A stretch of 64,000 bases of DNA from Amphiura filiformis (taxonomy: Eukaryota; Echinodermata; Ophiuroidea; Amphilepidida; Amphiuridae). The notes under the pieces are model-generated. The model did no database searches. It was given only the letters and a program-made list of their open reading frames with translations, and had not been told where the DNA came from. The DNA is taken from NCBI RefSeq assembly GCF_039555335.1, contig NC_092646.1:24120893-24184892 (forward strand), given 5' to 3'. The translations under genes and the position numbers were made by a program. This document shows, one piece after another, positions 2,509-56,700 of this stretch; within the stretch, counting starts at the first letter, position 1, and the number at the start of each line of letters is the position of its first letter.

Positions 2509-3315
2509 TTACAATTTACCTAACCTTTTCATTTTCTCCCTATGCGTTACTGACGGCTTTGAAAAGTGACTTTTAGTGATTTGCAGCGGCACATCTTTAC
2601 CGCCAAGATACAGTTTGTTCACAAGTTCTTCCAATGCATAGAATTCCACAAAAGAAGCACCTATACTTGGAATATCGGCGCTGGACGGGACACGGCCATG
2701 TTGGGATACAAAGGTTGCCATGGCAAATCCTGTCATGAACGCATCAAAACCAGCTCTATGGCAACCGGCATATTTAGGTTTGAGGTGGGAATCTCCAGCT
2801 GAATTTATACTGCTACCATTTACATTACCAACCACACTCCCTAAAACCTTCTTGCTTTCACTGCTATCTGTACTCTTCGACATGTCCACATCTGAATCAC
2901 GTGTCTGTACAGTTTGCTCACTAGAATTTGCCTCTTTATTTTGGTCACTAACACTAACACCATCCTGCGAGACGGTGTCACTCATTTCTTTATCAGTTCT
3001 ACTATCTTCATCCGCATCTGCAGATATATCTTGTTCATCATCCTCAAAGTCATCATCCTCACCATTCCTCTCTACATCACCATGGCAACCATCCTCCATG
3101 TTATCTTCACACCTGATCTTCATCTCAGGTTCTCCAGACTGTGAACCCTGTTGTCTATCGTCGCCACCCTGGTGGCTTCTCTTCCGTCTGCGTTCTCTCT
3201 TCTTCTGGTTCCTCCTCTTCTTTCTGGCTACCAATTTAAACTCCTCCTCATCCAGTATGTCGTCTGCAACGTGAGATTTGGGGCACTGCATGCCTTTGAC
3301 ACAATGACCATGAGC
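2509..3315 (-). CDS. TOE1: TOE1 last coding exon: zinc finger, NLS, acidic region, conserved C-terminus
   Basis: Starts after acceptor cttctgcag with AHGHCVKGMQCPKSH, the last three zinc ligands. A strongly basic run (RKKRRNQKKRERRRKR) follows and is a likely nuclear localisation signal. Next comes a long Asp/Glu/Ser-rich stretch. The exon ends with the TOE1-specific block HRAGFDAFMTGFAMATFV, KLYLGGKDVPLQITKSHFSK and KMKRLGKL before a TAA. A long plus-strand open frame over the same bases (2720-3274) is only a shadow of the acidic and basic codons. Confidence 0.92.
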   Translation of the reverse strand, partial: AHGHCVKGMQCPKSHVADDILDEEEFKLVARKKRRNQKKRERRRKRSHQGGDDRQQGSQSGEPEMKIRCEDNMEDGCHGDVERNGEDDDFEDDEQDISADADEDSRTDKEMSDTVSQDGVSVSDQNKEANSSEQTVQTRDSDVDMSKSTDSSESKKVLGSVVGNVNGSSINSAGDSHLKPKYAGCHRAGFDAFMTGFAMATFVSQHGRVPSSADIPSIGASFVEFYALEELVNKLYLGGKDVPLQITKSHFSKPSVTHREKMKRLGKL

Positions 3316-15300: not shown

Positions 15301-18300
15301 AATATTATTATAATTTATTCATTAGATTTCATCATTATCACCCTTGACTACTTTGAAACAGGATAGACCTAGCGATAGAATGGAATGACTTTTGGCAACT
15401 TCACATAGAGCTTGGTATCTCTCATCAAATGACCTACAAAGAGTAATATTATTTTAATTTATTCATTAGATTTCATCATTATCACCATTTACTACTTTGA
15501 AACAGGATAGACCTAGCGATAGAATGGAATGACTTTTGGCAACTTCACGTGAGAGCTTGGTATCTCTCATCAAATGACCTACAAAGAGCAATATTATTTT
15601 AATTTATTCATTAGATTTCATCATTATCACCATTTACTACTTTGAAACAGGATAGACCTAGCGATAGAATGGAATGACTTTTGGCAACTTCACGTAGAGC
15701 TTGGTATCTCTCATCAAATGACCTACAAAGAGTAATATTATTATAATTTATTCATTAGATTTCATCATTATCACCCTTGACTACTTTGAAACAGGATAGT
15801 CCTAGCGATAGAATGGAATGACTTTTGGCAACTTCACGTAGAGCTTGGTATCTCTCATCAAATGACCTGCAAACAGTAATATTATTATAATTTATTCATT
15901 AGATTTCATCATTATCACCCTTGACTACTTTGAAACAGGATAGTCCTAGCGATAGAATGGAATGACTTTTGGCAACTTCACGTAGAGCTTGGTATCTCTC
16001 ATCAAATGACCTGCAAACAGTAATATCATTTTAATTTATTCATTAGATTTCATCATTATCACCCTTGACTACTTTGAAACAGGATAGTCCTAGCGATAGA
16101 ATGGAATGACTTTTGGCAACTTCACGTAGAGCTTGGTATCTCTCATCAAATGACCTGCAAACAGTAATATTATTTTAATTTATTCATTAGATTTCATCAT
16201 TATCACCCTTGACTACTTTGAAACAGGATAGTCCTAGCGATAGAATGGAATGACTTTTGGCAACTTCACATAGAGCTTGGTATCTCTCATCAAATGACCT
16301 ACAAACAGTAATATTATTATAATTTATTCATTAGATTTCATCATTATCACCCTTGACTACTTTGAAACAGGATAGTCCTAGCGATAGAATGGAATGACTT
16401 TTGGCAACTTCACGTAGAGCTTGGTATCTCTCATCAAATGACCTGCAAACAGTAATATTATTTTAATTTATTCATTAGATTTCATCATTATCACCCTTGA
16501 CTACTTTGAAACAGGATAGACCTAGCGATAGAATGGAATGACTTTTGGCAACTTCACGTAGAGCTTGGTATCTCTCATCAAATGACCTGCAAACAGTAAT
16601 ATTATTATAATTTATTCATTAGATTTCATCATTGTCACCCTTGACTACTTTGAAACAGGATAGTCCTAGCGATAGAATGGAATGACTTTTGGCAACTTCA
16701 CGTAGAGCTTGGTATCTCTCATCAAATGACCTACAAAGAGCAATATTATTGGGATTTATTCATTAGATTTCATCATTATCACCCTTTACTACTTTGAAAC
16801 AGGATAGTCCTAGCGATAGAATGGAATGACTTTTGGCAACTTCACGTGAGCTTGGTATCTCTCATCAAATGACCTACAAAGAGCAATATTATTGGGATTT
16901 ATTCATTAGATTTCATCATTATCACCCTTTACTACTTTGAAACAGGATAGTCCTAGCGATAGAATGGAATGACTTTTGGCAACTTCACATAGAGCTTGGT
17001 ATCTCTCATCAAATGACCTACAAAGAGTAATATTATTATAATTTATTCATTAGATTTCATCATTATCACCCTTTACTACTTTGAAACAGGATAGTCCTAG
17101 CGATAGAATGGAATGACTTTTGGCAACTTCACGTAGAGCTTGGTATCTCTCATCAAATGACCTGCAAACAGTAATATTATTTTAATTTATTCATTAGATT
17201 TCATCATTGTCACCCTTGACTACTTTGAAACAGGATAGTCCTAGCGATAGAATGGAATGACTTTTGGCAACTTCACGTAGAGCTTGGTATCTCTCATCAA
17301 ATGACCTGCAAACAGTAATATTATTATAATTTATTCATTAGATTTCATCATTATCACCATTTACTACTTTGAAACAGGATAGTCCTAGCGATAGGATGGA
17401 ATGACTTTTGGCAACTTCACGTAGAGCTTGGTATCTCTCATCAAATGACCTGCAAACAGTAATATTATTATAATTTATTCATTAGATTTCATCATTATCA
17501 CCATTAACTACTTTGAAACAGGATAGACCTACAGTGTAGCGATAGAATGGAATGACTTTTGGCAACTTCACGTAGAGCTTGGTATCTCTCATCAAATGAC
17601 CTGCAAACAGTAATATTATTATAATTTATTCATTAGATTTCATCATTATCACCATTTACTACTTTGAAACAGGATAGTCCTAGCGATAGAATGGAATGAC
17701 TTTTGGCAACTTCACGTAGAGCTTGGTATCTCTCATCAAATGACCTGCAAACAGTAATATTATTATAACTTATTCATTAGATTTCATCATTATCACCATT
17801 TACTACTTTGAAACAGGATAGTCCTAGCGATAGAATGGAATGACTTTTGGCAACTTCACGTAGAGCTTGGTATCTCTCATCAAATGACCTGCAAACAGTA
17901 ATATTATTTTAATTTATTCATTAGATTTCATCATTATCACCATTTACTACTTTGAAACAGGATAGTCCTAGTGATAGAATGGAATGACTTTTGGCAACTT
18001 CACGTGGAGCTTGGTATCTCTCATCAAATGACCTGCAAACAGTAATATTATTTTAATTTATTCATTAGATTTCATCATTATCACCATTTACTACTTTGAA
18101 ACAGGATAGTCCTAGCGATAGAATGGAATGACGTTTGGCAACTTCACGTAGAGCTTGGTATCTCTCATCAAATGACTGCAAACAGTAATATTATTTTAAT
18201 TTATTCATTAGATTTCATCATTATCACCATTTACTACTTTGAAACAGGATAGTCCTAGCGATAGAATGGAATGACTTTTGGCAACTTCACGTAGAGCTTG

Positions 18301-21300
18301 GTATCTCTCATCAAATGACCTGCAAACAGTAATATTATTATAATTTATTCATTAGATTTCATCATTATCACCATTTACTACTTTGAAACAGGATAGACCT
18401 AGCGATAGAATGGAATGACTTTTGGCAACTTCACGTAGAGCTTGGTATCTCTCATCAAATGACCTGCAAACAGTAATATTATTTTAATTTATTCATTAGA
18501 TTTCATCATTATCACCCTTTACTACTTTGAAACAGGATAGTCCTAGCGATAGAATGGAATGACTTTTGGCAACTTCAATGAGAGCTTGGTATCTCTCATC
18601 AAATGACCTGCAAACAGTAATATTATTTTAATTTATTCATTAGATTTCATCATTATCACCATTTACTACTTTGAAACAGGATAGACCTAGCGATAGAATG
18701 GAATGACTTTTGGCAACTTCACGTAGAGCTTGGTATCTCTCATCAAATGACCTGCAAACAGTAATATTATTTTAATTTATTCATTAGATTTCATCATTGT
18801 CCTATGGACGCAATAAGTAGACCAAACACAACTATTGCCGGAGCTGGATCTTTACCATCCGAATCTTTTATTTCCTTTCATTTACACAGTTGATCAAGTG
18901 TCAACTGTGTTCTTCATACTTAATTTAATATCGCATATCACTTCAGACAGCTATATCATCTGATATTTTAAATAGATATAAATTCAAATTCATTAGCGCC
19001 TCAGACAGCTATATCATGTGGCTTATTCTTTAAAAGCAATATATATCAATCATTGAAATCATATATGTATCAGACAGCAATATCATCTGATACCCTTTTT
19101 ACGCAATCAGACAGCTATATCATCTGATATTTTAAATAGATATAAATTCAAATTCATTAGCGCCTCAGACAGCTATATCATCTGGCTTATTCTTTAAAAG
19201 CAATATATATCAATCATTGAAATCATATATGTCTCAGACAGCAATATCATCTGATACCCTTTTTACGCAATCAGACAGCTATATCATCTGATGCCATTTA
19301 TGGTCCTGAAGTGAGACGACCCACTTCAAATCCCAAACAGCATATTTGGCTTGGACCTAATCATTACTCATTTCGAATTAGGACAACCCCATTCAATTTC
19401 CAAACATCCTAATTTGGAATTGACATTAAATATTAAGTATGTGAAAACATTCCCAATGACTTGCTCAAATGCAGCAATGTATCTCCATTTTGATTCATAT
19501 ATTGGACAAAATGGTAAAAAGCAAAAAGAAACAATGCCATTTAATATCATATTTTTTATAAAGGGAGTGGTGGGTGGGTTTTAAAATTTTCCTGACCTCT
19601 TCGGATGGTATCGAAACAGCTTATGAATTTTCCCGGCAACAATTTCTGTGAAAACAGCCACGCCCCCAGAACCGCTGCCTATGATTGGCTACTGGCACGC
19701 GACTCGACACAGGCATGGATGCACAACAGGTGTCGGACTGATGTCACAACACGCATGGCACCACCTTTTATTGATCTACAGGACAATGAAACCCTTTTCA
19801 ACAAAACCCAGGGCTTATTACGCCAATGACAATTTTGGTTTTGATTGAAGTTTGCTCAATCAAAACCCGATTATCACCATTTACTACTTTGAAACAGGAT
19901 AGTCCTAGCGATAGAATGGAATGACTTTTGGCAACTTCACGTAGAGCTTGGTATCTCTCATCAAATGACCTGCAAACAGTAATATTATTATAATTTATTC
20001 ATTAGATTTCATCATTATCACCATTTACTACTTTGAAACAGGATAGTCCTAGTGATAGAATGGAATGACTTTTGGCAACTTCACGTAGAGCTTGGTATCT
20101 CTCATCAAATGACCTGCAAACAGTAATATTATTTTAATTTATTCATTAGATTTCATCATTGTCACCATTTACTACTTTGAAACAGGATAGTCCTAGTGAT
20201 AGAATGGAATGACTTTTGGCAACTTCACGTAGAGCTTGGTACATCTCTCATCAAATGACCTGCAAAGAGCAAATATTTATTTGATTTATAGATTTATTAC
20301 TGGGAAATATTACAAAGCGCATATAATCAAAAATCTATAATATAACATAATTTACCATATATTCATACTGGTCATTAAGGGGTACTGCACCCTGGCCAAT
20401 TTTGTGCCTATTTTTGCATTTTCTCAAAAATTATAGCGCATTGGTGACAAGTAAGATATGTATATTATAGGGGCAAGGACTACCACTACTGCACTGAAAA
20501 TTCAGCAACTCAAGGCAAGTAGTTTATTGATTTATTGATCAAATACTGGTTTTCCCTCATTTTTACTGTAACTCCAGAACTGTTGTCTGTGTTGAAATAA
20601 AATTTCCAGTGCCCCTATAATATACATCTTTTGTCACCAATGCGCTATAATTTTTGAGAAAAATGCAAAAATAGGCACAAAATTTGGCAGGGGTGTAGTA
20701 CCCCCTTAACCGCCCATACCCCTATAAGCGCCCACCCAGTTGACAACTGACAACAAGCAAACTGTGATAATATTAACAGTCAATGCATTTTAAGGCGCGC
20801 GAGTGCGATCGCGCGCATAGAGCCCACCTTAAATCACTTTACCGAGTGCGATTTATAGCGCACCTTGTCACCTCAAGGAGTTTCCAAAAGCAAGTCATTT
20901 GCAGCGGTTCCCGAAAGTTTGTTGCATAAAATAATCTTTACATTAGAAAGGTGACGACCCACAGTGGTGACGACCCAAACAATATCTTTTCTACTCGCTG
21001 ATTGGCCGTTTTCGACAATTTAATATGTAAATTAGCTGACCTTTCTTGTAAGGTCACGCTACCGAAATATGATAACATGCTGTTCATGTCACAACAAAGA
21101 CGTGACATGCCATTGCCCACCGTAGTAAATGAGGTAATGTTTATGCATTCAACTGAACTGTACAATTATTTAGAAGCTGAACAAGGCTGATTTAATATTT
21201 TGACATGACCTACACATGTGCGATCTGTGTGTAGCGCTATGATAAAATTGTACCGAGGTTTGCCGATAGAAATATCAGTTTAGGCCTATACTACTCATCA

Positions 21301-26504: not shown

Positions 26505-28886
26505 AGTTAGGCGTGCAGCCTAACTTATTTTTTTCTTGCTGTTTGTTAAGTTAGGCGTGCAGCCTAACTTATTTTTTTCTTGCTGTTTGTTTCTTTCTTT
26601 CTTTCTTTCTTTCTCACAATTGACTACTAGTGCTACATCCGTGATCGGATGTGGACCAAACGCATAGCCAAGCCGTATTGGGTAAGTGGCTACAAAAGTC
26701 TTTAAATGTTTTAATATCGGAGGTCATCCAGGGGGGCACAGGGGTCAAAACTGGTCATTTTGCCTCATATGTGCCGCACCCCCATTATAATTAGGGGCAA
26801 AACATGGAGACATCTAGTCTAGTGTTTTGATAAACAAGAGATAACCACAGTCAATGGTTCTGCTGTCTGTGCTTCAAAACGTGTAAAATTTCGTCTGGAT
26901 TCGTCTATTGCCAGGTGGTGAGTGCCGTGCATTCTCTAAATTCAGTAAATTTCCATCGTCAACCGTGTGGAAAATGTCATACGGCCGGGCGGTTTCACAA
27001 GTTGCCGGCTCTATCATACCAGTCGCTGCCTGGCTATTGCAGCTGCAATCCATACATCAAAACGTGTAAATTTTGGCTATTCCAACTGCAATCCATACAC
27101 CCTTCATGCAAGACATGACTGGAATCGTCCACACATGGAGTGAATATTACAAACGGAGTCACCCATTGAGGTAGGCCCATTCGAAATTCACACGCCCTGT
27201 GTGGGAGATTAAGATAATGTCTTCCGGAGAGGTTGTATGAATTTCAACTGAACAGCCCAGTTGGGGTGTATGAAACCCCAAGTGGGCGATTCACACGAAA
27301 CAAACTGAGGTATGTTCAGATGCCAATTTCGTTACATATCTTGAGTGTAACTTGTGATGTGATGCCTGTATGCTAGATATAAACAGCTACATCATTTCCA
27401 CTGATGGCTATAGGGTGTGGATGTGTGAGTGTGTGTGGGGTGGGGTGATATCTTGGCTAAAACTGCATCACGCCTTCCCATGATGCATTTATGAAAATCA
27501 ATAATCCCCTATATAGTTTCTACAGATGACGCAATAATGGTGAATAAGGGGGTGAGGGGTAAGTAAAATGTTGAAATATGACCGCATTAAACCACAAAGG
27601 TCATGTGAGGTCAAAGGTCAGGTCAAATTTAAAGTTGCTCCGATTGGGCTGTAACTCGGGGAAAATGATCCCTGACACTTGGGGAGTATGAAACCGCAAA
27701 GGTCATGTGAGGTCAAAGGTCAGGTCAAATTACAAGTTGCTCCGATTGGGCTGTAACTCGGGGAAAATGATCCCTGACACTTAGGGAGTATGAAACCGCA
27801 AAGGTCAAGTGAGGTCAAAGGTCAGGTCAAATTTGAAGTTGCTCCAATTAGGCTGTAAGTCGGGGAAAATGATCCCTGACACTTTGGGAGTATAAAACCA
27901 CAAAGGTCATGTGAGGTCAAAGGTCAGGTCAAATTTGAAGTTGCTCCAATGAGGCTGTAAGTCGGGGAAAATGATCCCTGACACTTTGGGAGTATAAAAC
28001 CACAAAGGTCAAGTGAGGTCAAAGGTCAGGTCAATTTTGAAGTTGCTTCAATTAGGCTGTAAGTCGGGGAAAATGATCCCTGACACTTTGGGAGTATAAA
28101 ACCACAAAGGTCAAGTGAGGTCAAAGGTCAGGTCAAATTTGAAGTTGCTCCAATTAGGCTGTAAGTCGGGGAAAATGATCCCTGACACTTTGGGAGTATA
28201 AAACCACAAAGGTCATGTGCGGTCAAAGGTCAGGTCAAATTACAAGTTGCTCCGATTGGGCTGTAACTCGAGGAAAATGATCCCTGACACTTGGGGAGTA
28301 TACAACCACAAAGGTCAAGTGAGGTCAAAGGTCAGGTCAAATTTGAAGTTGCTCCAATTAGGCTGTAAGTCGGGGAAAATGATCCCTGACACTTGGGGAG
28401 TATGAAACCGCAAAGGTCATGTGAGGTCAAAGGTCAGGTCAAATTTGAAGTTGGTCCAATTGGGCTGTAAGTCGGGGAAATGATCCCTGACACTTGGGAA
28501 GTATTAAACCGCAAAGGTCATCCGAGGTCAAAGGTCAGGTAAAATTTAAAGTTGCTCTGATTGGGCTGCAATTCGGGAAAATAATCCCTGACACTTGAGA
28601 AGTATGAAACTGGAAAGGTCATCCAAGTTCAAAGGTCAGGTCAAATTTAAAGTTGCTCGATCAGGCTGCAACTTGCGGCAATGATCCCTAACACTTGGGA
28701 AGTGTAAAACCGAAAAGGTCATCCGAGGTCAAATTTAACGTTGCTCAAAATATGAAACCGAAAAGGTCAACCGAAGACAAAGGTCGGGTCAAATTTAACG
28801 CTGCACAGTATTGCTGCGTGATGATGTCATAACAGTCATACGGCTAACTTACCTCGTGCCCTTGCAAAGGGCACAGTTGCTCTAGT
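26505..28886 (+). mobile_element. Family C representative unit
   Basis: Starts with AAGTTAGGC / GCCTAACTT hairpins (twice), then (TTTC)n, then a unique head also present in C2 and C3. A 107-bp minisatellite follows, and the end is GTGCCCTT GCA AAGGGCAC (8-bp stem) seven bases before CTAGT, a textbook Helitron 3' arrangement. CTAACTTA near the end matches the head hairpin. Confidence 0.8.
27590..28790 (+). repeat. 107-bp minisatellite in C1
   Basis: About eleven units with AAAATGATCCCTGACACTT and GAGGTCAAAGGTCAGGTCAA, decaying toward the right end. Nearly every intact unit has a perfect AGGTCAAAGGTCA. Confidence 0.88.
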
Positions 28887-29889: not shown

Positions 29890-31910
29890 TAAACCACAAA
29901 GGTCATGTGAGGTCAAAGGTCAGGTCAAATTTAAAGTTGCTCCGATTGGGCTGTAACTCGGGGAAATGATCCCTGACACTTGGGGAGTATGAAACCGCAA
30001 AGGTCATGTGAGGTCAAAGGTCAGGTCAAATTACAAGTTGCTCCGATTGGGCTGTAACTCGGGGAAAATGATCCCTGACACTTAGGGAGTATAAAACCGC
30101 AAAGGTCAAGTGAGGTCAAAGGTCAGGTCAAATTTGAAGTTGCTCCAATTAGGCTGTAAGTCGGGGAAAATGATCCCTGACACTTTGGGAGTATAAAACC
30201 ACAAAGGTCATGTGAGGTCAAAGGTCAGGTCAAATTTAAAGTTGCTCCAATTGGGCTGTAAGTCGGGGAAAATGATCCCTGACACTTTGGGAGTATAAAA
30301 CCACAAAGGTCAAGCGAGGTCAAAGGTCAGGTCAATTTTGAAGTTGCTCCAATTAGGCTGTAAGTCGGGGAAAATGATCCCTGACACTTGGGGAGTATAA
30401 AACCGCAAAGGTCAAGTGAGGTCAAAGGTCAGGTCAAATTTGAAGTTGCGCCAATTAGGCTGTAAGTCGGGGAAAATGATCCCTGACACTTTGGGAGTAT
30501 AAAACCACAAAGGTCATGTGAGGTCATAGGTCAGGTCAAATTTAAAGTTGCTCCAATTGGGCTGTAAGTCGGGGGAAATGATCCCTGACACCTGGGGAGT
30601 ATAAAACCACAAAGGTCAAGTGAGGTCAAAGGTCAGGTCAAATTCGAAGTTGCTCCAATTAGGCTGTAAGTCGGGGAAAATGATCCCTGACACTTTGGGA
30701 GTATAAAATCACAAAGGTCATGTGAGGTCAAAGGTCAGTTCAAATTTGAAGTTGCTCCAATGAGGTTGTAAGTCGGGGAAAATGATCCCTGACACTTTGG
30801 GAGTATAAAACCACAAAGGTCAAGTGAGGTCAAAGGTCAGGTCAATTTTGAAGTTGCTCCAATTAGGCTGTAAGTCGGGGAAAATGATCCCTGACACTTT
30901 GGGAGTATAAAACCACAAAGGTCAAGTGAGGTCAAAGGTCAGGTCGAATTTGAAGTTGCTCCAATTAGGCTGTAAGTCTGGGAAATGATCCCTGACACTT
31001 TGGGAGTGTAAAACCACAAAGGTCATGTGAGGTCAAAGGTCAGGTCAAATTACAAGTTGCTCCAATTGGGCTGTAAGTCGGGGGAAATGATCCCTGACAC
31101 TTGGGGAGTATAAAACCGCAACGGTCATGTGAGGTCAAAGGTCAGGGCAAATTTGAAGTTGCTCCAATTGGGCTGTAAGTGGGGAGAAATGATCCCTGGG
31201 AAGTATTAAACCGCAAAGGTCATTCGCGGTCAAAGGTCAGGTCAAATTTAAAGTTGCTCTGATTGGGCTGCAATTCGGGGAAAATGATCCCTGACACTTG
31301 GGGAGTATGAAACCGCAAAGGTCATGTGAGGTCAAAGGTCAGGTCAAATTTGAAGTTGGTCCAATTGACCTTTTCGGTAAATCCCATAACCCATTGCGAG
31401 TACACCTGAGAACTCGTCATTTTACGCCACGCCCGACTTGCAATGCGCAGTAACGATGTTCGATAAACGATGTGCGATCGGCGCAGAGCGGCGTGATTTA
31501 AAAATGACGAAGTTCTTAGGTGTACTCGCAAAGGCTTATGGGATTTACCGAAAAGGTCAATTGGGCTGTAAGTCGGGGGAAATGATCCCTGACACTTGGG
31601 AAGTATTAAACCGCAAAGGTCATCCGAGGTCAAAGGTCAGGTAAAATTTAAAGTTGCTCTGATTGGGCTGCAATTCGGGGAAAATAATCCCTGACACTTG
31701 AGAAGTATGAAACTGGAAAGGTCATCCAAGTTCAAAGGTCAGGTCAAATTTAAAGTTGCTCCGATCAGGCTGCAACTTGCGGCAAATGATCCCTAACACT
31801 TGGGAAGTGTAAAACCGAAAAGGTCATCCGAGGTCAAATTTAACGTTGCTCAGAATATGAAACCGAAAAGGTCAACCGAAGACAAAGGTCGGGTCAAATT
31901 TAACGTTGCA
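29890..31910 (+). repeat. 107-bp minisatellite in C2
   Basis: The same unit as in C1, expanded to about seventeen copies and interrupted by a fold-back element at 31370-31561. Confidence 0.88.
31370..31561. mobile_element. Fold-back element nested in the C2 minisatellite
   Basis: Arms GACCTTTTCGGTAAATCCCA and TGGGATTTACCGAAAAGGTC are perfect inverted ends and homology extends inward about 60 bases. Absent from C1, so it inserted after C1 and C2 separated. Confidence 0.82.
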
Positions 31911-41717: not shown

Positions 41718-44700
41718 GTAAGACCGATTTTATGCTTTAAAAAACATGTCTCAATTTTCTAATATCAATATTATCATCGCAATGGAGTGGAATTCTGCAC
41801 CTTTGTCGCTATTTTGTGTGTGTGTGCAGACATAGACTGTAAGGTACTAATTTCGAGGAGCATAACAAACACCAAATTGGTGTCATAACAAACATCAAAT
41901 TGGTGTCGTATGACCTGCCATGCATGCATTCTTTTGTCGAGAGTTGACATGGTCTTTCAATTTGTGCTGAGTGTCCTTGCTTGGCAGACTTGACTATGGT
42001 TATGTAGGTATCCCAGGCAAACCTTAGTTAACACATTTGCTAGTCAGCTAAATTCGCTGAGACCGGGGCCCAAACACAATGCATATTTACATAGAAATTT
42101 GATTTTTTTTTCGAGAACAGGTCGGTGAAGGAAACCTACATAAATATGTTTTCTATACTTCACTTGACCCAAATATATGATTTTTTATAATGGTGATAAT
42201 CAAGTCGCACATGGAATTTTAGAGGGATTTTGATAGCAGTTCCATTAAAAAAAGCTGCTATCGCCATGAGATTAAGATCTAGAAACACCCCTAAATGCCT
42301 TTTGGGGAATTTTGCTAGCAGAATCTTTTTGATGAAAGTCAATCTTTGACAAGATGTAACTTTGTTACGGAAAGTGCTATGACAAAAATGTTTTCAGTTT
42401 TGGCTTTCTTTACTCAAGGGCTTTAATTTGATATGTAAAATGATGCAATTTGATGGCAAATTTGAATTCACCTAGCATACCTAGGTTATGCTTCAGTGGT
42501 CATGAAAGGATTCAATAGATAACCCCTGCCCCACTAATCCCCAGCTATTGTCTGAAATTGCTCCTCAGAAAATATATTATAACAACTCAGTCCTCAAATG
42601 ATAGTCATATAACGACCAAAAGATAAATGACTGACTATCAAGTATCATTGAGGACTGAGTTCCGCGGTCTAGTGTGTGTGGTGATCCACCGGCTGCGGGT
42701 TTAGGTCATTTTATTATTTCGCCGATCAATTGCGATGCACCGCTTTGGAAAGCATTAAGCGATGCGGATATGGCAATCGATCGGCAAAATTTTGCAACTC
42801 ATCACCCCGGCCGGCCCTGGTCCCCGCGCATCGCGATCACTCGTCCTAAAATTGCATTATTAATTTTGAGTGTCTGACCGATCAGATCGGTAGCTTCCGA
42901 ATCGGGCCAATTATAATTAGTAGCTTATCGGTGGTGATCGGCATCGATCGGCCCATTTTTCCTTCATTCGCCGATTTACTCTTGAAAGCCAAGCCAGGCT
43001 TCAACTTCAAGCTAAAGAACTCTAGCTTCGAATTTGCACACAATAATACGCATTTGATGCTAGAGTACATTGCTATCGTTTTTCGGTCGGACAGCGGTGC
43101 ACATTTTTGCACCGGAGGTTATTTATTTTGTTAATGTTGAAATTTGTATGTATCTTTTGAGCAAGATTTGCCTAGTTTGGACAGTTTGCGGTGATCGGCT
43201 GTGTTTACTTCTGAACTTCCATTGGCATTTTGCTTTACAAATTACATGGTGTCGTGCTTCAGCTATCAGTGAGCAAATTCTTGGCTAGACTTCTCGAGCA
43301 ACCGCCGATGTAATGCACCGATCACTCAGTATCATGAAACTCGTGAAGTACCGGTAATTGTTGAATTGAAGCTTAACTTCCTAGCAGAATCATGAGAATA
43401 GCTGTTTTCAAAAAAATATTTTAACATACAGGGCTTTCTCAGTTCTTTGAGTGCATGACCTAGCGGTGTTTGCACTCAAATATTGATGCAGATAAAGCTG
43501 ACACACAAGAGGATGGTAAAAGTTCTATTTAAAAGCAAACCCCAAGTCTGGATATGTTGTACATACTGTAATTTATAAATTACTATAATCGTGCCATACT
43601 GCCATTTCCACCCCCCCCCTCTATACCACTCGCCTTTGAAAACACTGGTCAGTCTTCCTTTAATTTGAATGACACTTTATGATAATTCCATTATCTATCC
43701 TCTCTATTTCAGACAATGAGCTTCGGACAATCATCGACAAGTTGGCCAACTTTGTCGCTCGCAACGGCCCCGACTTTGAGCACATGACAAAGATGAAGCA
43801 GAAGGGCAATCCTAAATTTAATTTCCTGTTTGGTGGTGAATATTACAACTATTACAGTTACAAAGTAGCTACTGAATCTCAGAGTAAGTACTGTTGAACA
43901 GCACTGTTGTTTTTAAGGCTGTGATTTTCGGGTAATTTTATGCCTTTTTATGATCACCAGGAGTGCAAAAATTATTGTATTTAATTTAGTCTCTGTTTGT
44001 AATTCCGAGTTGTTTTCGTTTTCTAAAAATAACCACAAAAAAGTATCCACTTTTGGGAAATCTGATTATTTCATTTTACTGAAAAAAATGTCAACCATAT
44101 GTTTCTATCTGGCAACACTGAATCCAACAACATGGCGATTCACATGCGCAAAATCGGCAGCATCATGAAAAGTAATGGCATATTTAATCAGTTTGTTCTT
44201 TCTGCTTGTACAATTGGAAACTAGACCTGAATAAGCTTAAATTTTGCCTGTTCTTGGAAAACTCCATTTTCCATTTTCTACTTGGAATATTCAGTGAAAT
44301 TTCTCCATTTTCCATGGAGAACTCTTATTTAATTCTTGGACACGACCTGTACAATTTGAAAGCAAAGAGTGCATCCACTACACTGGGTTTCAGAAAAGAA
44401 TGGCACTCCCTTTCTCAGATTGACGCGAGCGCCCTGTTAATGAGCGACATACGCGGAGCTTGTGTTCACTTTAATTGAGCCGACCAACGATGTGACGCAC
44501 AATCGGCCAATTTGGATTATCGGTCTGTTGCTATGATTGTCAGATGATTGATTCAGCCAATCAGAACCCCACTTCCGTGCTTACGCTCTGCACGCTCTCA
44601 CAATGTAAACAAGTGCCGTTCTTTTCTGACAAAAACTTCAGTGCTGTTATCGACAAATATTTTGAGTATCAACATGTAAATACTTCCAATTTATCGACAT

Positions 44701-47700
44701 GTATCAACAGTGAATAACCTGACAGGGCTCAAAGCTCCTTCCTGGGGAAATAAACATGATAGCAATTTTAGCAAAGCTGTTAATTTCACCCTTGTTGGTA
44801 AGGTCATCATTCCCTGAATACCTTTGTAATTTTTTACCAACAGTCCAGCAACAAACCAAGCAGAAGCTAGTGCAGCAACAAGCCATTATACAGGAGGTCA
44901 TCACACAGCAGTCTATTCAGTCAGCACCATGGCAACAGATCCAACAACAACCGCCACCACCACCACAAGCACCGCCGACAGTTGTGACTGCTGCGGCGCC
45001 TCCACCGGTGCAATTGCAAGTTGTAGCACAAACTCCTGTGAGTATATTTGTTACTGGTAAGATTGTGAAATCATAATAATAATCATGTATTCATCTCCCC
45101 GCACCACCTTATCCATGTAAGAATTTGTATGCAAGCTGTTTTTAATGTACCAAATTTGACATAATTAGCATCCTGGGTGCGTCTGTAGTTCATCTGAAGG
45201 ATCGCTTTATAATAACCTTATTTAGAAAGTCATGCTGGACATTTTTTATGCAAAACAGTAATCAAAGCTGCAATTGAAGTAAATAGAAATAACACCCATA
45301 CAACAAATGTTACCAAATGTTACAGCTACAACTATTACATCATTATTGAGAAATGATTTTCTATTCATCTCAAATTTCCATTCAAATTTCATCAAAATGG
45401 TGAAGAAGTTTATTTGGACCAGACATCGCATTTACCTTTTTTAAGACAGTTCTTGTTTCAAAATAAGAATTGTAGCATCTCTTCCAGGGTTGTAGCTAGC
45501 CAAATATTAGTGCTGGCTAGAATTAAGAGAAAATTGAATCAGAATGCCAATTACATGTACTTGACAGCAATGGCATTTGACAGCTGTTTTGGGGACAATT
45601 TGTCATTTTAGTGCTGGTCGGCAAGACCCATAATTCCCTTGAGTGCCGGTCGGTCAGGCTGAGGACTGGTTACTGCCGACCACCGTGGCTACAACCCTGA
45701 TCTCTTCTCAAAGAATACCCAAGGGATTGATTAACAGATTTTATAAATTTTAAATTATCTTCTATGAATACTGCACTGTAGTGCTTTATTGTACTGGTAG
45801 CATTGAGTAATTTGCTAATTAACAGTACTTGTTTGATATTTACTCAGATAACCCAGCCTCCTCCCTCAGCCATTCAACATGCCCAGCTAGTCATGCAGAA
45901 ACAAGAGATTAAGAGGCAGATTGCACAGAGTGAAGAAAACCTGAAGAAACAACATGAAGTACTCATGAAATCACAGCAGGTAGGTTGATCACATCAGGTG
46001 GGTAGGTTGATGACAGCAGGTAGGTTGACAAGCTAGTCATGCAGAAACAAGAGATTAAGAGGCAGATTGCACAGAGTGAAGAAAACCTGAAGAAACAACA
46101 TGAAGTACTCATGAAATCACAGCAGGTAGGTTGATCACATCAGGTGGGTAGGTTGATGACAGCAGGTAGGTTGACAAGCTAGTCATGCAGAAACAAGAGA
46201 TTAAGAGGCAGATTGCACAGAGTGAAGAAAACCTGAAGAAACAACATGAAGTACTCATGAAATCACAGCAGGTAGGTTGATCACATCAGGTGGGTAGGTT
46301 GATGACAGCAGGTAGGTTGACAAGCTTGTCATGCAGAAACAAGAGATTAAGAGGCAGATTGCACAGAGTGAAGAAAACCTGAAGAAACAACATGAAGTAC
46401 TCATGAAATCACAACAGGTAGGTTGATCACATCAGGTGGGTAGGTTGATGACAGCAGGTAGGTTGACAAGCTAGTCATGCAGAAACAAGAGATTAAGAGA
46501 CAGATTGCACAGAGTGAAGAAAACCTCAAGAAACAACATGAAGTACTCATGAAATCACAGCAGGTAGGTTGATCACATCAGGTGGGTAGGTTGATGACAG
46601 CAGGTAGGTTGACAAGCTTGTCATGCAGAAACAAGAGATTAAGAGGCAGATTGCACAGAGTGAAGAAAACCTGAAGAAACAACATGAAGTACTCATGAAA
46701 TCACAGCAGGTAGGTTGATCACATCAGGTGGGTAGGTTGATGACAGCAGGTAGGTTGACAAGCTAGTCATGCAGAAACAAGAGATTAAGAGGCAGATTGC
46801 ACAGAGTGAAGAAAACCTAAAGAAACAACATGAAGTACTCATGAAATCACAGCAGGTAGGTTGATCACATCAGGTGGGTAGGTTGATGACAGCAGGTAGG
46901 TTGACAAGCTAGTCATGCAGAAACAAGAGATTAAGAGGCAGATTGCACAGAGTGAAGAAAACCTCAAGAAACAACATGAAGTACTCATGAAATCACAGCA
47001 GGTAGGTTGATCACATCAGGTGGGTAGGTTGATGACAGCAGGTAGGTTGACAAGCTAGTCATGCAGAAACAAGAGATTAAGAGACAGATTGCACAGAGTG
47101 AAGAAAACCTCAAGAAACAACATGAAGTACTCATGAAATCACAGCAGGTAGGTTGATCACATCAGGTGGGTAGGTTGATGACAGCAGGTAGGTTGACAAG
47201 CTAGTGATGCAGAAACAAGAGATTAAGAGGCAGATTGCACAGAGTGAAGAAAACCTAAAGAAACAACATGAAGTACTCATGAAATCACAGCAGGTAGGTT
47301 GATCCGTTGAATGCAGCGAAAATCCTCAGGCTCAGTTCTTCAATCCAGAAGTGGAACCCTGGCTCTCTCTCATTGGGCTATTCCATTTAAAATCCACACT
47401 ACCCCTGTGGAAGATTTTGGAAATATCTTCCACAGTGGAGTATGAATTTCAAAAGGAATGAGCACTTTAGGCAGCTCCATTTGAATTTCATACACCCTCT
47501 GAGAAAGATTCAATCTGAATCCTCCACAGAGGGAGGCCCAACATGCAGAGAAAGTCCTCTGTTGTAAAGCAGGCTCAGTTCTTCACCCAGAAGTGGAACC
47601 CTGGCTCTCATTCTTGAAGTCTTGATGGTACTATACTGCGTTCAAAAACAACCTCTATTGCATGGCATCTGAGATGCAAAGTTGCTTGCTTATGCTTATT

Positions 47701-50700
47701 TTGTGTGGTGTTCCCAAACCACAACATCTCTCCATATCCTGGATTGACGACTGAGAAAACTGAGGAAAAAACTGACAGATTTTGCAATAGGATTCCTGTG
47801 GCATAGAGCATGGGCAGTTGTGTCAAAATTGACTTTTGACCGAGGATGTTGTTTTTAGAACTTGTTTTTAGAGCGCGATCTTGTCACAACGCTGCGGTAC
47901 AGGGATGTGGTACACAGGCTCCGCTAGAAGTCGCATTGAATATTTTTTCAAAAGTCCGTCATGATATGGATTGTAACTTGTAAGGCAATCAGTCGTCACT
48001 ACGAAGCATAACACAGTACATATGCAGTGTAGATGGCTGATTGGAATTAGTCTAATTTTTAGATATAGTTACGTTAGTCAACTCTTGGTTTTCAATAGTC
48101 GTAGTTGTGACTGCCTGTAGTAGTCGCGATTAACAACAATATCTATATACTGAAATCATGTTTACTGTGCTTACTTTTTTCAGGATCAGATAGACGCTGC
48201 TTTAGTGCAAGGCAGAGAGGGCAAACTTCAGGACATGGCCACTAAGCTTGATATCCCTATTGCAGATTTTGATGGTAAACTACAGACCATAAGCGAGTCA
48301 TGCACCAAAGATGCTATCTCAGTAAGTAGATATGTACCTATACTAGCTGACAAAAGCTAAGATTCATGCACATCTGGGATTTTTTTCCTCCGGTGTATCT
48401 GCTTGTTCATGCTATGTTTACATGGTAATATGGTAGTATTCACCAACATTTAATACTTATATATATTCCAGGCAGGGAAGCAGTGGATCTTCTCAACGTC
48501 CAAAAGTCCGGAGCATTGTCAGCTGGTAGCTCAACATCTCCTGGTGAAGATCTTACCCAAAGGGATGACATTCCAAACCAAGCTTCATCTTATTTATCTC
48601 ATCAATGATGTGCTACACCACTGGTAGGTTATGCCTATGAGAACTACCTGCCTATTGGTCAAAAAGAAGTTTTCATTATCAATTGGACCAATCAGCATCA
48701 TTGTTAGAATAATATCACCACACAAATAAATTAGGTTGAATTATTTGCAAAGCTCCATTCTGATTGGTGATTAAAGTAAAGATATCACGTAATTGACCAA
48801 TCAGAGGCAGGTAGTACTCAGGGGGTTATGCTTCATTTGGAAAGGTTATGCTTAGTGTTGTCAAAAAATTTCAGCTCCAAGGCGCAGCACATTGGCACTC
48901 CCGGCCGCGGTAAAGGAGTCTCAGGTAGCCCAATTTTTAAGCTTAAAAAAAAGCGCCCAATACTAGATATTTGGGCAAATTGACCCGAATTTAGAATGCA
49001 AATCACCCACTTAGTTGGAAGAGCACTTGACTTTAAAACTCCTGGTAGTTAATGGGGAGTTATGGACCGATCAATAAATGCTCACAGAACCCTTTGTAAT
49101 TCAACCTGATTTCTGCAAAGTAGCCCAATTTTAGGCAAGTAGCGGCACAGTATTTTGAGTAGCGTCAAGTGATTGCCAAGTAACCTAATTGTGCACCTAA
49201 GGCGCAGCGTTAGCATCAATGGTTATGCTACATTTTGGAAGAAATAATAATAAAATTTATTCCGCTGTCATTAGAATATGTCAGCTGCCATTAGCCTTTT
49301 CGAGATATGGCGTGCACAATAGGATGGCGCTGCACGAAATTGGTTAAGTCTTTTGAATTTGCCAGGTTTTATCCATATTGAAGACTGCCCTCCTATTGTG
49401 TACGCCATATCTCGAAAAGGCTTTGTTTGCAAACAAATGTGTATGAGACATGGAAGTACACCAAATGGCACAACTTTCTGTCACTGGAAAAATATCATTT
49501 CATGTCGTTTTCCTAGAAATCTACTTCAAACCATTTTCACATGCAATGCATCATGGGTAAAATCAACAGGTTCATTTTCTTCATTTATATTAATGAGTTT
49601 ATAAAAGTGAGAGAATAATTTAGTGGGAAACCAACATGATGGTTTGTTTTCTGCATTTCAGTATTCGATGTCTGAGACAAAGTTTACGGTAGGACTTGTA
49701 GCCGAATTCTCCTGAGTCACTTGTCTCGGTCATGTATTTGGTGGAATTTTTGATGTGATGTATGCACAATGTCATGCAAGCACAAGCACATATCACATCA
49801 AATTTTTTTTTTTTTTACCATTTGTAAGCCTGGATGCTGTCTACGCACTTCATCATTTTGCCATGTGTATTAGAAAATAAATAAAAACAAGTGCAGGGAT
49901 TTATGTAGTGCCTAGAATTCGTAATGAAATGTATATCAAAGCGCTGTACATTTATTCCACTGCCACTAAGATATATCACACAATTTCACAGCCAAGTAAC
50001 CAACAATAATGGCACTGGTATGACTACCCTATTACAGCTCCCCAATTTACACTTGGGTGGAGTGGGTCAAGCGATATTAAGTGTCTTGCCCAAGGGCACA
50101 ACACATTGACCCTGACAGGGTTCAAACCAACAACCTCACTGTCACAATTTGAACATCCTAAGGTAAACAGGGGTATAGCTCTTAAAATGGGAGTATTGTA
50201 GCCATAAAGAGCTTAGAATGCTTGTTGCATTTTTCTTTCTCCGAGTGCGATATTTGGGTTGTTGCTGGAATTTTTCGCTATTTTGAAAATATCTTCCACA
50301 GGGGGAGTATGTTTTTTAAATGTAATTAGTCAGGGTTAATCATTTTGAAACCCATACTCCCCCTGTATTATACCTTAACCTATATCTTCCACAACTGGAG
50401 TGAGTATTCCAAATGGAAGTTAACTCAATTTGAAACTCATACTCCCTCTGTGGAAGGTATTTCCAAAATCTTCCACAGGGGGAATGTGGATTTTAAATGG
50501 AACAGCACAATGACAAGATGAAATGTGTTAACTTAAAATTTGTATGTACAGACTTTTTTTGCTTCTTGGACATTGTCATTGGAATTTGTCCACAGTCAGT
50601 ATTGGTTTGGGTGACTGGAAAACAATTTATTTCGAACACTGCTCATTTAGAGTACATAGCATTAGCATTTACCTACAATCAATTTATACTTGACAGCAAG

Positions 50701-53700
50701 ATACTGATAACACTTATGGGATTCTGTTCTTATGAACTTCTTACTTGATATTGGTGTTTGTTTTGGTATATTTTGTTTTGTTTTATTGGTCTCTCTCTTG
50801 AGATAAACAGTGTGTTGGAATCACTATGAATGGAATACTGTAGAATTTCATTTACAAGCATATATGCCGATGATTGAGTGTTTTTTTTTTTTCAAAAGAG
50901 ACAAATGGCAGACACCCTGCACTAAAATATTTGGAGTCTGAGCATCTATATTACTGATGCAGGCAGCAGTACAAACAGACACCCTCCACTAAACTATTTG
51001 GAGTTTGAACAACTATATTGCTGATATAGGCAGCTGTACAAACTTTTGTAATGTGTATGTGGAGTGTTTCTAGTCTCTTTCGTCAAAAAACACTAATTTA
51101 GAGGCATATGCTTGTAGACATAATTCTATGGTATGGGTTGTGTTATTTTGTAAGTGTGTTATGTTTTTAATGTTTGTTTGATTGTTCATTTGTTTGATAT
51201 GTTTTGTTTTGTTTGTTTGTTTTGTTTGTTTGTTTGTTTATTTTTTGTTCAAGTTATAAATTCACATTCATATATTTGGGCATGCATGTTTTGACTGGTG
51301 AAATGCAACAAGAAAAGAGCACAGTGAGTAATAGTACCCATGAACAGGCATAAATCCACATTACAGCCATTTAGTATCATTCAGATGATGCTTCTCTATA
51401 CAGGGGCAAAACCCTAATCAGCCTACTTGTGCATATAATCTTTGCAACCAGGATTAGCTCCCTTTCCTTTCCTTTTTGTCTCGCCTGAATGTTCAGGGAG
51501 AGACTTAGTAATCACTATGGTGTGTGTGTGTCCGTGTGTGTGTGTGGGGTGTGTGTGCGGGGTGCGTTTGTAAATGCCTCCAACTGTGGAGGTGTGTGTG
51601 TTTTGTCACATTCACACTGCGGAGTCTGCTAACAACCGTGGAGCTCCACAGTTGAAGATGGGGTTTTTGAACCATAGGGGGTATACCACCTGTCATTTTT
51701 CTGATTAGAGCAACCTCCACAGTATGGCGGTTTGCTGTGAGATTTGTGTAAAAAATCTCCCCAGTTTGAATGTGGGTGTGTGAATCTCCCCAGTTGGAAT
51801 ATACACACACCTCCACACTTGGCGGCATTTACAAGAGGGGGTGTGTGCGTGTGTGTGTTCGGAAAAAGGTTGTGAACGCGTTATCTTGAGAACCGTAAGT
51901 GCTATGATGATGAAACTTTATAGGGGGTAGCATGACCAGAGGGTGTCGACCTGATTAGATTTTGAGCGCAAAATATGGTAATTAAGTACCTAATTTGCAT
52001 AATTTATGCGTAATAAGCAAAATACCTTGTGAACAGATTATCTGGAGATCCGTATGGGGTACAGTGACGTAACTTGGTGGGGAGTAAGCGTGGCCAGATG
52101 TTCTCGACCTGATTAGATTTTCAGCGCAAAATATGCTAATTAAGTACCTAATTTGCATAATTTATGCGTGTTTGATGCGTATCAAGCAAAAAACCCTTGT
52201 GAACAGCTTATCTGGAGATCCGTATGGGGTACAGTGACGTAACTTGGTGGGGAGTAGCTAGGCCAGATGTTCTCGACCTGATTAGATTTTCAGCGCAAAA
52301 TATGCTAATTAAGTACCTAATTTGCATAATTTATGCGTATTTGATGCGTATCAAGCAAAAAACCCTTGTGAACAGCTTATCTGGAGATCCGTATGGGGTA
52401 CAGTGACGTAACGGGGAGGAGTAGCGGGGCCCGAGGGTCTCGACCTGATTAGATTTTGAGCGTAGAATATGGTAATTAAGTACCTAATTTGCATAATATA
52501 TGCGTAATAAGCAAAATACCTTGTGAACAGATTATCTGGAGATCCGTATGGGGTACAGTGACGAACTTGGTGGGGAGTTATGTGGCCAGAGGTACTCGAC
52601 CTGATTAGATTTTCATGAGGTCAAAGGTCACATACAAGGTCAAAGGTCAACTGAGGTCACCAAATCTTTTAATAATTAATTTTCAACTGTGCATCACATA
52701 TCCCAATAACAGCTTGATCGGTCATGTAATTAAGGAAATATGACGACTTTAAGATAGTCGCTTTCTTTGTAAAGTATAGCAAAGTAGCACTTTCAATGAG
52801 TGACAACTCGTAAAGGAAGCATCTTTCTGTTTTGATTTATTTGATGAAATAGTTCTTTGGTATTGCCAAATTTGATTTTTCAGCGCAACATACTTTATCC
52901 AATTTCGTGAGGTCAAAGGTCACATACAAGGTCAAAGGTCAACTGAGGTCACCAAATATTTTAATAATTAATTTTCAACTGTGCATCACATATCCCAATA
53001 ACAGCTTGATCGGTCATGTAATTAAGGAAATATGACGACTTTAAGATAGTCGCTTTCTATGTAAAGTATAGCAAAGTAGCACTTTCAATGAGTGATAACT
53101 CGTAAAGGAAGCATCTTTCTGTTTTGATTTATTACTTTGATGAAATAGTTCTTTGGTGTTGCCAAATTTTTGGAATGTCATTACGGGGTCATCCGAGGTC
53201 ACTCAGGGGTCATCTGAGGTCAAGTTATTAAAAACTCGTATGGGCATGAAACTTGATGGGTACAGTCAACATTTCAAGCCAATTTTTGGAAGTTCATTTT
53301 GGGGTCACCAGGGGTCATCTGAGGTCAAATTCGTAAAAACTGTCGTATGGGCATGAAACTTGGTGGGTACAGTCATCATTTAAAGCCAAATTTTGGAAGG
53401 TCATTTTGGGGTCACCAGGGTCATCTGAGGTCAAATTAGTAAAACTGTCGTATGGACATGAAACTTGGTGGGTACAGTCAACATTTCAAGCCAAATTTTT
53501 GGAAGGTCATTTCGGGGGCATCTGAGGTCAAATTAGTAAAAACTGTTGGATGGACATGAAACTTGGTGGGTACAGTCAACATTTAAAGCCAAATTTTTGG
53601 AAGGTCATTTTGAGGTTACCAGGGTCATCTGAGGTCAAATTAGTAAAACTGTCGGATGGGCATGAAACTTGGTGGGTACAGTCAACATTTAAAGCCAAAT

Positions 53701-56700
53701 TTTGGAAGGTCATTTCGGGGTCACCAGGGTCATCTGAGGTCAAATTAGTAAGAACTGTCGTATGGTCATGCAACTTGGTGGGTACAGTCAACATTTAAAA
53801 CCAAATATTTGGAAGGTAATTTCGGAGTCACCAGGGGTCATCTGAGGACAAATTAGTAAAAACTTGTATGGGCATGAAACTTGATGGGTACAGTCAACAT
53901 TTAAAGCCAAATTTTTTGGAAGGTCATTTCGAGGCCACCATGGGTCATCTGAGGTCTAATTAGTAAAACCTGTCGATGGGCATGAAACTTAGCACGAGGG
54001 GTACAGTCAACATTTAGAGCCAAAATTTTAGAAGGTCATTTCAGGGCCACCAGGGGTCATCTGAGGTCATATTAGTAAAAACTGTTGCATGGGCATGAAA
54101 CTTGGTGGGTACAGTTACCATCGGCTAGATAATCGTGCCCAGCCGATAACCGCCAAATTCATTTACCTCTCTACCAACAGTTATCGCAAAAGCAGGCGGT
54201 CACAAAAGCAGGCGAGACTCGTGGTTCGAGAACCGCCTTGTCTTTCCTTTCCTTTCCTTTCCTTTCTAGTACTTCCTATAGCAGCTCATTTGAGCTAAAC
54301 TGGAAGTCCTCTGGAACTTAGAGGAGGTGATTATACAGATATCAGAACCAGGGATGGTCCCCCTTCTCTTTCGAATAGCTCTGACACTTAACGTGCACAG
54401 GATTTGACTCTTCCTGTACACGGGACCACCAGCTTTATGTAACTTTCCGAACCTCGATACACCGTTCATACACTACATATATCTGCATGTGCTACGTAGT
54501 GTATGGGGGCGAGAGGAATTCTACAATTATATTCTATACTGCTTCGAAGCAGAGACTGCTTCACACTTTCAGGGGATAGGTTAATGAATTCTTACCAAAG
54601 GCAAGCCCAAGGCTTGAACCCACGCAGAATGTATTATCCCGGCCGACGGCTCAGCGCCTTAGACCGCTCAGCCATCTCGCCCTCCCTGGCTTTCAAAGAT
54701 GAAATAACCACTTGACACAGTAATGGCACCATACAATTCAAACTGAGTCTCACCACACTGTATCACATGGCTGGTAACCACCCAGCTATTAATTACAGTG
54801 GGTACATTAATGACGATTGTATTAATATGCACTTTGACGTATCTATTTGTTACTTTTGCAGTGTGAGACGTGGTGCTGAAGAGCTGCAGCTTGCGTTAGC
54901 TGATATTGTGGTGCCTATTTTCTGTTCTACACATATCAGTGCTGATGAGGAACAAAGACAGAAATTAGATAAGGTAAGCGATGGTCTAAACCAAAAAGGG
55001 TATTTTATGGGAGTACGGGGGAAGTGTGTCCAGCAATATGCGATGCAATCAAGCTAAATAAGACTTGATGTCAATCAAAAACAAAATTCAGTAGGCACCA
55101 TTCTACATCTTCATAGGCACCCCAATTTGTTGAACTTTACGCTCAACACTGTACACACAACCGTTACGACCAACCGATTCATTTTCATGTCATGGTCCCC
55201 ACATTAGGAACCATATGCCAGATCACATCAAACTTCTCTGAGACACATTCAAGAAACTGTTAAAATTTCATATTTTCATAATATCCTACAACCAATAACA
55301 TTTTTGCTTTAAATTACTGCAGCATTATATTTTACATGTATTGTTTTCTTAAAATGATTATTATATGTGTACATCCATATCAAAACGATGCACTTGTCGG
55401 CTGCTACATGTATCTCATTTCACATAATAGCTAGGAACAAATACCAGACTCATCTCAAGTGGAGGTCACTTCAAATCATCCCTAATAAGTCACATGGTTT
55501 GGGAATATATAGAACATTCCTTAACCATGTGACTTGGTGATGATTTGAACTGATCTCTGCTTGAGATGAGTGTGGTATTTATTCCTAGCTATTATGTGAA
55601 ATGAGACATATGTAGCAGCCGACAAGTGCATCGCTTTTGATATGGATGTACACATATTTCTTTGCTTATGTACATAGTTTTTAGTACCTACTAAGGTCCT
55701 TAAAGTGGAAATTCATTTTGGTTTTGGCACTCTGTAAGTGCCAGTGATTGATTAAGGGGTACTACACCCTGTGGTAAATTTGTGACTATTTTGCATTTTT
55801 CTCAAAAATAATAACACATTGGTAACAAAAGTAATGTATATTATTGGGGCAAGGAATCCAATTAGTACACTGAAATTTCAGCGACTCAAGACAAGCGGTT
55901 CAGTATATATGATAGGAAACGAGGTACATCCTAGCGGTACCTTATTTCTTATCATAAATAATCTAACCGCTTGTCTTGGGTCACTGAAATTCCAGTGTAG
56001 TAATTGGATTCCTTGCCCCTATAATATACATAACTTTTGTTACCACTGTGTTCATAGTTTTTGAGAAAAATGCAAAAATAGACAGAAATTTATCGAGGGG
56101 TGTAGTACCCCCTTAATTGATTAAGATCTCATGATGTGAGATGGGTTTTTTTAATGGTACCTTTTTTTCCTTGCATTGCTTACAGGTGCTGAATTTATGG
56201 AAGACCAACAATTACTTTGCTGACAATGTGATCAAGGATTTGGAGAGCCCTGCCACATCTCTATCTGCATTCCAAGTAAGTCTCAGTGGTCCGATTTCTC
56301 GAAGCTTGGCTAGTGGTCAAGCTTCCTAAGCCATTTAAGCCCAAGTAGTCATGTATACCAGTGCTTACAATTTCACATAGTACATCATCTAGAAAGATAA
56401 ATCAATAAAATGGATCCACATTGGTAGGACTAGCCTTGACACAGGAAATAATGCATTGCTACTTGTACTGGGTGCAGCCATGTTGATGTGTGCTATAACG
56501 TCCATTGTTCATGATAAAAAAAAAAAAGTCTAGGGCAGGGCCTATTTTAGGATCGGTTGGGTTACACCATATAGCAATTTATGTTAGACCTTAAATTCCA
56601 CACAAATGATGGCTGTGCTAAAATCATAAGATTTGTATTGTATTTCATTTCATTTCAGGCATCTCAAATAGAAGATTCCAAAGTCGCTGTTCAAAAGATA

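Follow-up and report, generated by a model that had tools for sequence, protein, structure and literature searches.

A gene that sequence comparison identifies as CHERP (calcium homeostasis endoplasmic reticulum protein) in the brittle star Amphiura filiformis contains a tandem array in which the last 93 nt of an exon occur ten times, all copies encoding the same peptide and differing from one another at silent positions only, and in which the nine 53-nt spacers between them do not differ at all. The array lies in a 64,000-nucleotide stretch of contig NC_092646.1, referred to here as the window. The explanation that we prefer, tentatively and with rather less than even confidence, is that of a young array situated in an intron, whose silent variants would be alleles of the working exon 4 moved in by exchange.

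The gene model, guided by human sequence, comprises 12 exons with consistent phases from 41618 to 61712, where it ends, and the gene appears to continue beyond the end of the window, where the C-terminal G-patch and RS region of CHERP would be expected. Pfam domains Surp (4.3e-17) and CID (1e-26) were found in the model, both above the cut-off, and the top relatives in the protein search, among the matches listed, are CHERPs, which agrees with the CHERP assignment made in a preliminary description of this DNA. SURP domain, conserved helix, and CID follow one another in the same order as in CHERP. The parts of the gene and of the array considered here are the following.

43713..43883, + strand: exon 2 of the model, SURP domain (gene model, Pfam)
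45848..45979, + strand: CHERP exon 4 of the model, 132 nt, beginning and ending in phase 0; acceptor TTTACTCAG, donor CAG|GTAGGT
45887-45979, + strand: copy 0, the last 93 nt of exon 4
45980..46032, + strand: first spacer, with the donor and a frame-0 stop at its start (GTA GGT TGA) and ACAAG at its end
46033..46125, + strand: copy 1, identical to copy 0
46179..46271, + strand: copy 2, identical to copy 0
46325..46417, + strand: copy 3, with CTT and CAA
46471..46563, + strand: copy 4, with AGA and CTC
46617..46709, + strand: copy 5, with CTT
46763..46855, + strand: copy 6, with CTA at codon 19
46909..47001, + strand: copy 7, with CTC
47055..47147, + strand: copy 8, with AGA and CTC, equal to copy 4
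47201..47293, + strand: copy 9, with GTG and CTA, followed by 11 shared bases and then by different sequence
46126, 46272, 46418, 46564, 46710, 46856, 47002, 47148, + strand: starts of the other eight spacers, each 53 nt
48184..48321, + strand: exon 5 of the model, acceptor TTACTTTTTTCAG; by its anatomy the likely splice partner of 45979

The ten copies start at 45887 + 146×i, all nine spacings being 146, and each of them (10/10) translates into the same 31 residues, LVMQKQEIKRQIAQSEENLKKQHEVLMKSQQ, without a single replacement, indel, or stop. Compared with copy 0, there are 11 variant codons at 5 sites, all silent, which represent six distinct changes: CTA to CTT (copies 3 and 5), CAG to CAA (copy 3), AGG to AGA (copies 4 and 8), CTG to CTC (copies 4, 7, and 8), CTG to CTA (copies 6 and 9), and GTC to GTG (copy 9). 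The sets of copies sharing each change are nested or disjoint, so that a single tree fits (haplotypes read by eye), with seven distinct haplotypes and no mosaic ones. All six changes fall in the part common to the working exon and none in the spacers after copies 0 to 8; the sequence 3' of copy 9 agrees with the spacer over its first 11 bases only (GTAGGTTGATC). Tandem Repeats Finder reports the same array at 45885-47304, with a period of 146 and 98% matches. The array, which is known from one sequence, resembles a VNTR in that its tandem unit bears exon sequence and all ten copies are open, in frame, and specify the same peptide. Our recount reproduces the 146-bp units, the 31-codon copies, the 11 silent variant codons at 5 sites, and the identical spacers given in the preliminary description, and its caution that some variants are shared was well placed, 11 codons reducing to 6 changes.

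Of the 53 bases of the spacer 20 are G, and near-copies of the exon-donor junction (CAGGTAGGTTGA) recur within it at 22-base spacing. A search of the window for its origin, with lengths of 12, 14, 16, and 18, returned one 12-base match only, on the other strand.

The duplicated segment belongs to a conserved part of the protein. The stretch QIAQSEENLKKQ aligns with the SxxNLxxQ helix segment between SURP and CID, whose S, N, L, and Q are invariant in 30 chosen aligned relatives, and 8 to 18 of the 31 residues are identical across 16 relatives. In the predicted model of sea-urchin CHERP (P0004; 30 alignment rows, mean pLDDT 63.6, pTM 0.40), residues 99-158, which include the conserved motif, form one helix adjoining the CID, with a block confidence of 81 to 95 from residue 101 on, and Foldseek matched this model to CID structures; with bird CHERP as the query, no PDB chain named CHERP was found among 17 sequences. 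The helix between SURP and CID that the preliminary description had proposed is, on this prediction, a reasonable one, the motif lying inside the single helix 99-158. Second copies of the helix were also sought in relatives and the idea was rejected: in the 120 listed proteins the motif pattern occurs once in 74, is missed in 46, and never occurs twice, the misses showing the pattern to be narrow; the list also includes fragments and a few other proteins (such as an SF3A1, P0117). As a separate observation, the CHERP-like protein of Uloborus diversus (P0001, 1117 aa) has, by eye, two identical blocks bearing the CID and not this helix, which may be a true duplication or an assembly or annotation error.

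Could a pattern of silent changes only be due to luck? A young array free of constraint, whose six mutations were silent by accident, has in its favour that there are six events only, that the array was selected for its pattern, and that tandem arrays are plentiful in genomes of this kind (63 Tandem Repeats Finder rows in the window alone, overlapping rows included). For six independent events and kappa from 1 to 4, the probability of an all-silent outcome lies between 2.6e-5 and 2.6e-4 when the exon is taken as neutral and between 1.7e-6 and 1.7e-5 when the whole unit is, values that are flattering to the silent-only pattern, as it was singled out post hoc. The latter range speaks against chance, which we regard as improbable. 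Omega across the ten copies has an upper bound of 0.14 to 0.22 (one-sided, 95%), and constraint on the exon-copy sequence is supported.

The spacers are no less surprising than the exons. Pairwise divergence among copies averages 0.08 to 0.11 per silent site. Spacers of equal age that changed at this rate would be expected to show 4.1 to 6.0 pairwise differences, and 0 are observed; the upper bound on the ratio of spacer to silent rate is 0.20 to 0.29, so that the noncoding part does not vary at least as much as the silent sites. If nothing is constrained, an invariant spacer is unremarkable (p 0.067). With constraint on the exon and none on the spacer, the probability that all six changes miss the spacer is 1.6e-4 to 8.4e-4 (8.8e-4 for the 44-nt version of the intron), rising to 0.046 when three quarters of the spacer are held fixed and to 0.24 with nine tenths. 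Coding constraint on the copies alone does not explain the invariance of the spacers, because such constraint leaves the spacers free. Either most of the spacer is also constrained, or the exon variants predate the spacer. The preliminary description had taken silent variants and identical spacers together as a sign of constraint on translated copies; coding constraint would account for the exons, six of six changes being silent, and not for the spacers, whose identity it leaves unexplained.

Other arrays of the window provide rough controls. Two 102-bp arrays show variant positions in phases 12/10/15 and 8/17/16, with 9/11 and 10/14 copies kept, and are weak controls; a 144-bp array (11/43 copies kept, phases 9/4/4), a 115-bp array (2/3 copies kept), and a 106-bp array (0/8 copies kept) are of little use. 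The row for the CHERP array itself includes sequence 3' of copy 9 and was left out of this comparison. The large noncoding tandem arrays found by Tandem Repeats Finder are these.

12589-18798: period 144, about 43 copies
27589-28733: period 102
29891-31367: period 102
53197-54115: period 106

Apart from these, the palindromic element AAGCCGACG...CGTCGGCTT recurs at about 22150, 34458, 37460, and 39518, each time with a stretch rich in TTCTTC after it, and is likely the end of a repeat family. An intronless 572-aa frame at 6619-8337 (+ strand) has relatives carrying RING and B-box domains (TRIM-like) and is closest to Amphiura filiformis proteins, at 64% over 96%, with nothing near identity. 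At 2509-3426 (- strand) there is a 305-aa open frame with a zinc-finger-like stretch, HGHCVKGMQCPKSH, and an acidic/basic middle, which we take to resemble TOE1.

Whether the copies reach the protein depends on splicing. Reading straight through 45848-47304 was considered and rejected, with 22 to 44 stops per frame in the six frames and a longest open stretch of 58 codons; past the donor, frame 0 reads directly into the stop. An enumeration of GT-AG pairs with bounded intron length gave 14 stop-free combinations, 10 of which continue in the frame of exon 5, all 10 from the native donor. Two of these ten use acceptors in the spacer, TAG|GTT (44-nt intron, 34 codons) and AAG|CTA (53-nt intron, 31 codons), and the others use acceptors within the exon copy, one of them leaving zero exon. 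RNA structure was also considered and rejected, one unit having a z-score of 0.19, with 108/200 shuffles folding equally well or better.

According to the reading first put forward for this array, splicing would retain the copies and their translation would yield a variable-length helix between SURP and CID, with purifying selection acting on each copy and the spacers serving as ultrashort introns whose identity is maintained by the needs of splicing. Ten intact in-frame copies with 6/6 changes silent, the conservation of the duplicated segment, the two frame-preserving spacer acceptors, and a good donor on each copy, CAG|GTAGGT as in exon 4, are consistent with it. Splicing of introns like these is also conceivable: SPF45/RBM17 is reported to act on human introns that are short and have a truncated pyrimidine tract, and ultrashort introns rich in G, 43 and 49 nt long, are described (PMC8363638). 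Against it, the nine copy acceptors differ from all 11 others of the gene model: their pyrimidine share is 0.35, against 0.59 to 0.88, and their final 20 nt contain three AGs, against none. In addition, p would come near 0.05 only with about three quarters of the spacer fixed, and ten redundant copies ought to tolerate some replacements. Joined copies are absent from the protein searches, a point of little weight, as no protein of the source species was recognised there: a two-copy query (about 74-234 aa) gave 145 candidates, none significant, and a five-copy query (about 369-1174 aa; 7989 candidates scored, 121 significant, 120 listed) gave no joined-copy protein among the matches listed, where the name Amphiura is also absent and many entries are nameless or have shortened names. 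Selection on the exon sequence is the part of the original interpretation that we retain; translation of the copies is kept as a serious rival, which we judge unlikely.

A more elaborate version makes use of the protein itself. SPF45 is found in a complex with CHERP and SR140/U2SURP (PMC13332222), and the three are reported to regulate one another's levels (PMC9250932). The array might then act as a self-reading sensor, with nine short introns on which the activity of the complex would set the number of helix copies or of stop-bearing failures per CHERP transcript, the length or dose of the protein being tuned through its own capacity for splicing. Conservation would then extend to exon and spacer alike, each of them being read; we hold this version to be very improbable.

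The explanation preferred here, the young intronic array, would start with the joint duplication of part of exon 4 and a new 53-nt spacer, which would have grown to a tandem array in the downstream intron. The transcript most likely joins exon 4 (45979) directly to exon 5 (48184), the expected default for such anatomy, and the nine extra copies would mostly be removed. Unequal exchange or gene conversion would bring silent alleles of the strongly constrained exon 4 into the array, where block duplication would multiply them, and the spacer, made once, would be younger than the exon alleles. The array would receive only silent alleles because selection removes replacement alleles of the working exon, and its spacer, having arisen later, would not have had time to vary, which would cover silent exon variants and invariant spacers alike. 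What was computed is the array itself, the restriction of its differences to silent positions, the identity of the spacers, and the poor quality of the acceptors; from these we infer the skipping of the copies, the exchange with the working exon, and the relative ages.

Changes confined to the exon-shared stretch, poor copy acceptors, and strong constraint on this segment of CHERP all favour the young intronic array, and the 4.1 to 6.0 spacer differences expected against none seen suit exon variants older than the spacer. High allelic diversity is known in the group, with a heterozygosity of 3.22% (all sites counted) reported for Amphiura filiformis (PMC11310086). On the other side, there are no mosaics, and one tree equally suits plain mutation plus block duplication within the array; several separate exchanges across a 93-nt homology block are needed; and six silent variants exceed what ten alleles would be expected to carry, with p 0.010 for theta 0.032 and p 0.064 for theta 0.05.

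High heterozygosity also lends itself to another account, in which reads from other exon alleles altered the copy number or the variants during assembly or polishing. Variants that occur only where the array and the single working exon have sequence in common would fit such an artefact, and in one brittle-star project a long-read assembly was polished by short reads (PMC11310086). The exact 146-bp register, the seven distinct haplotypes, and the one consistent tree argue against it, and we consider it about as improbable as chance.

What the array means depends on the fate of the copies. Their translation would mean that, in one lineage, a conserved splicing factor acquired a helix that is repeated and may vary in length. 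Otherwise, the array suggests that silent-only differences between untranslated repeats can arise via exchange with one working copy, and dN/dS tests applied to repeat arrays would call for caution. Because the spacers are identical, RNA and population data can tell the two readings apart.

No report of a CHERP exon array was found among the literature matches listed, a search that covered few subscription papers. Among the 120 listed relatives the motif pattern of the helix segment was never matched twice, and the array here holds extra copies of that segment. The spacers, at 53 or 44 nt and with a pyrimidine share of 0.35, resemble the short introns (less than about 100 nt long, their pyrimidine tract truncated) that depend on SPF45/RBM17 (PMC8363638), whereas the 56-nt intron studied there has conventional splice and branch sites and AGs crowd the pre-acceptor stretch here, making these candidate introns only. 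The model of intron gain by tandem duplication (PMC4974935) is a second point of comparison: an AG|GT in the duplicated segment supplies both splice dinucleotides, as here, where CAG|GTAGGT ends each copy and an AG precedes each CTAG/CTTG. In that model, however, the peptide is unchanged, and each copy here, if spliced, adds 31 or 34 codons, so that the peptide would gain as many residues.

An exon-bearing tandem repeat is already a known kind of thing. The LPA KIV-2 array, like the one described here, is made of a tandem unit with exon and intron sequence (PMC11201333), although its units, of about 5.6 kb, contain whole exons and are known to be translated, and those here measure 146 bp and combine a partial exon with a new spacer. 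KIV-2 subtypes differ at more than 100 intronic positions (PMC11201333) and the spacers here are identical, a comparison that is a loose guide, given an intron of some 5 kb against 53 nt, some hundredfold longer, and mutation counts from about 199,000 people. In the exon, KIV-2 subtypes are distinguished by three synonymous variants (PMC11201333), and the differences among the CHERP copies are also silent.
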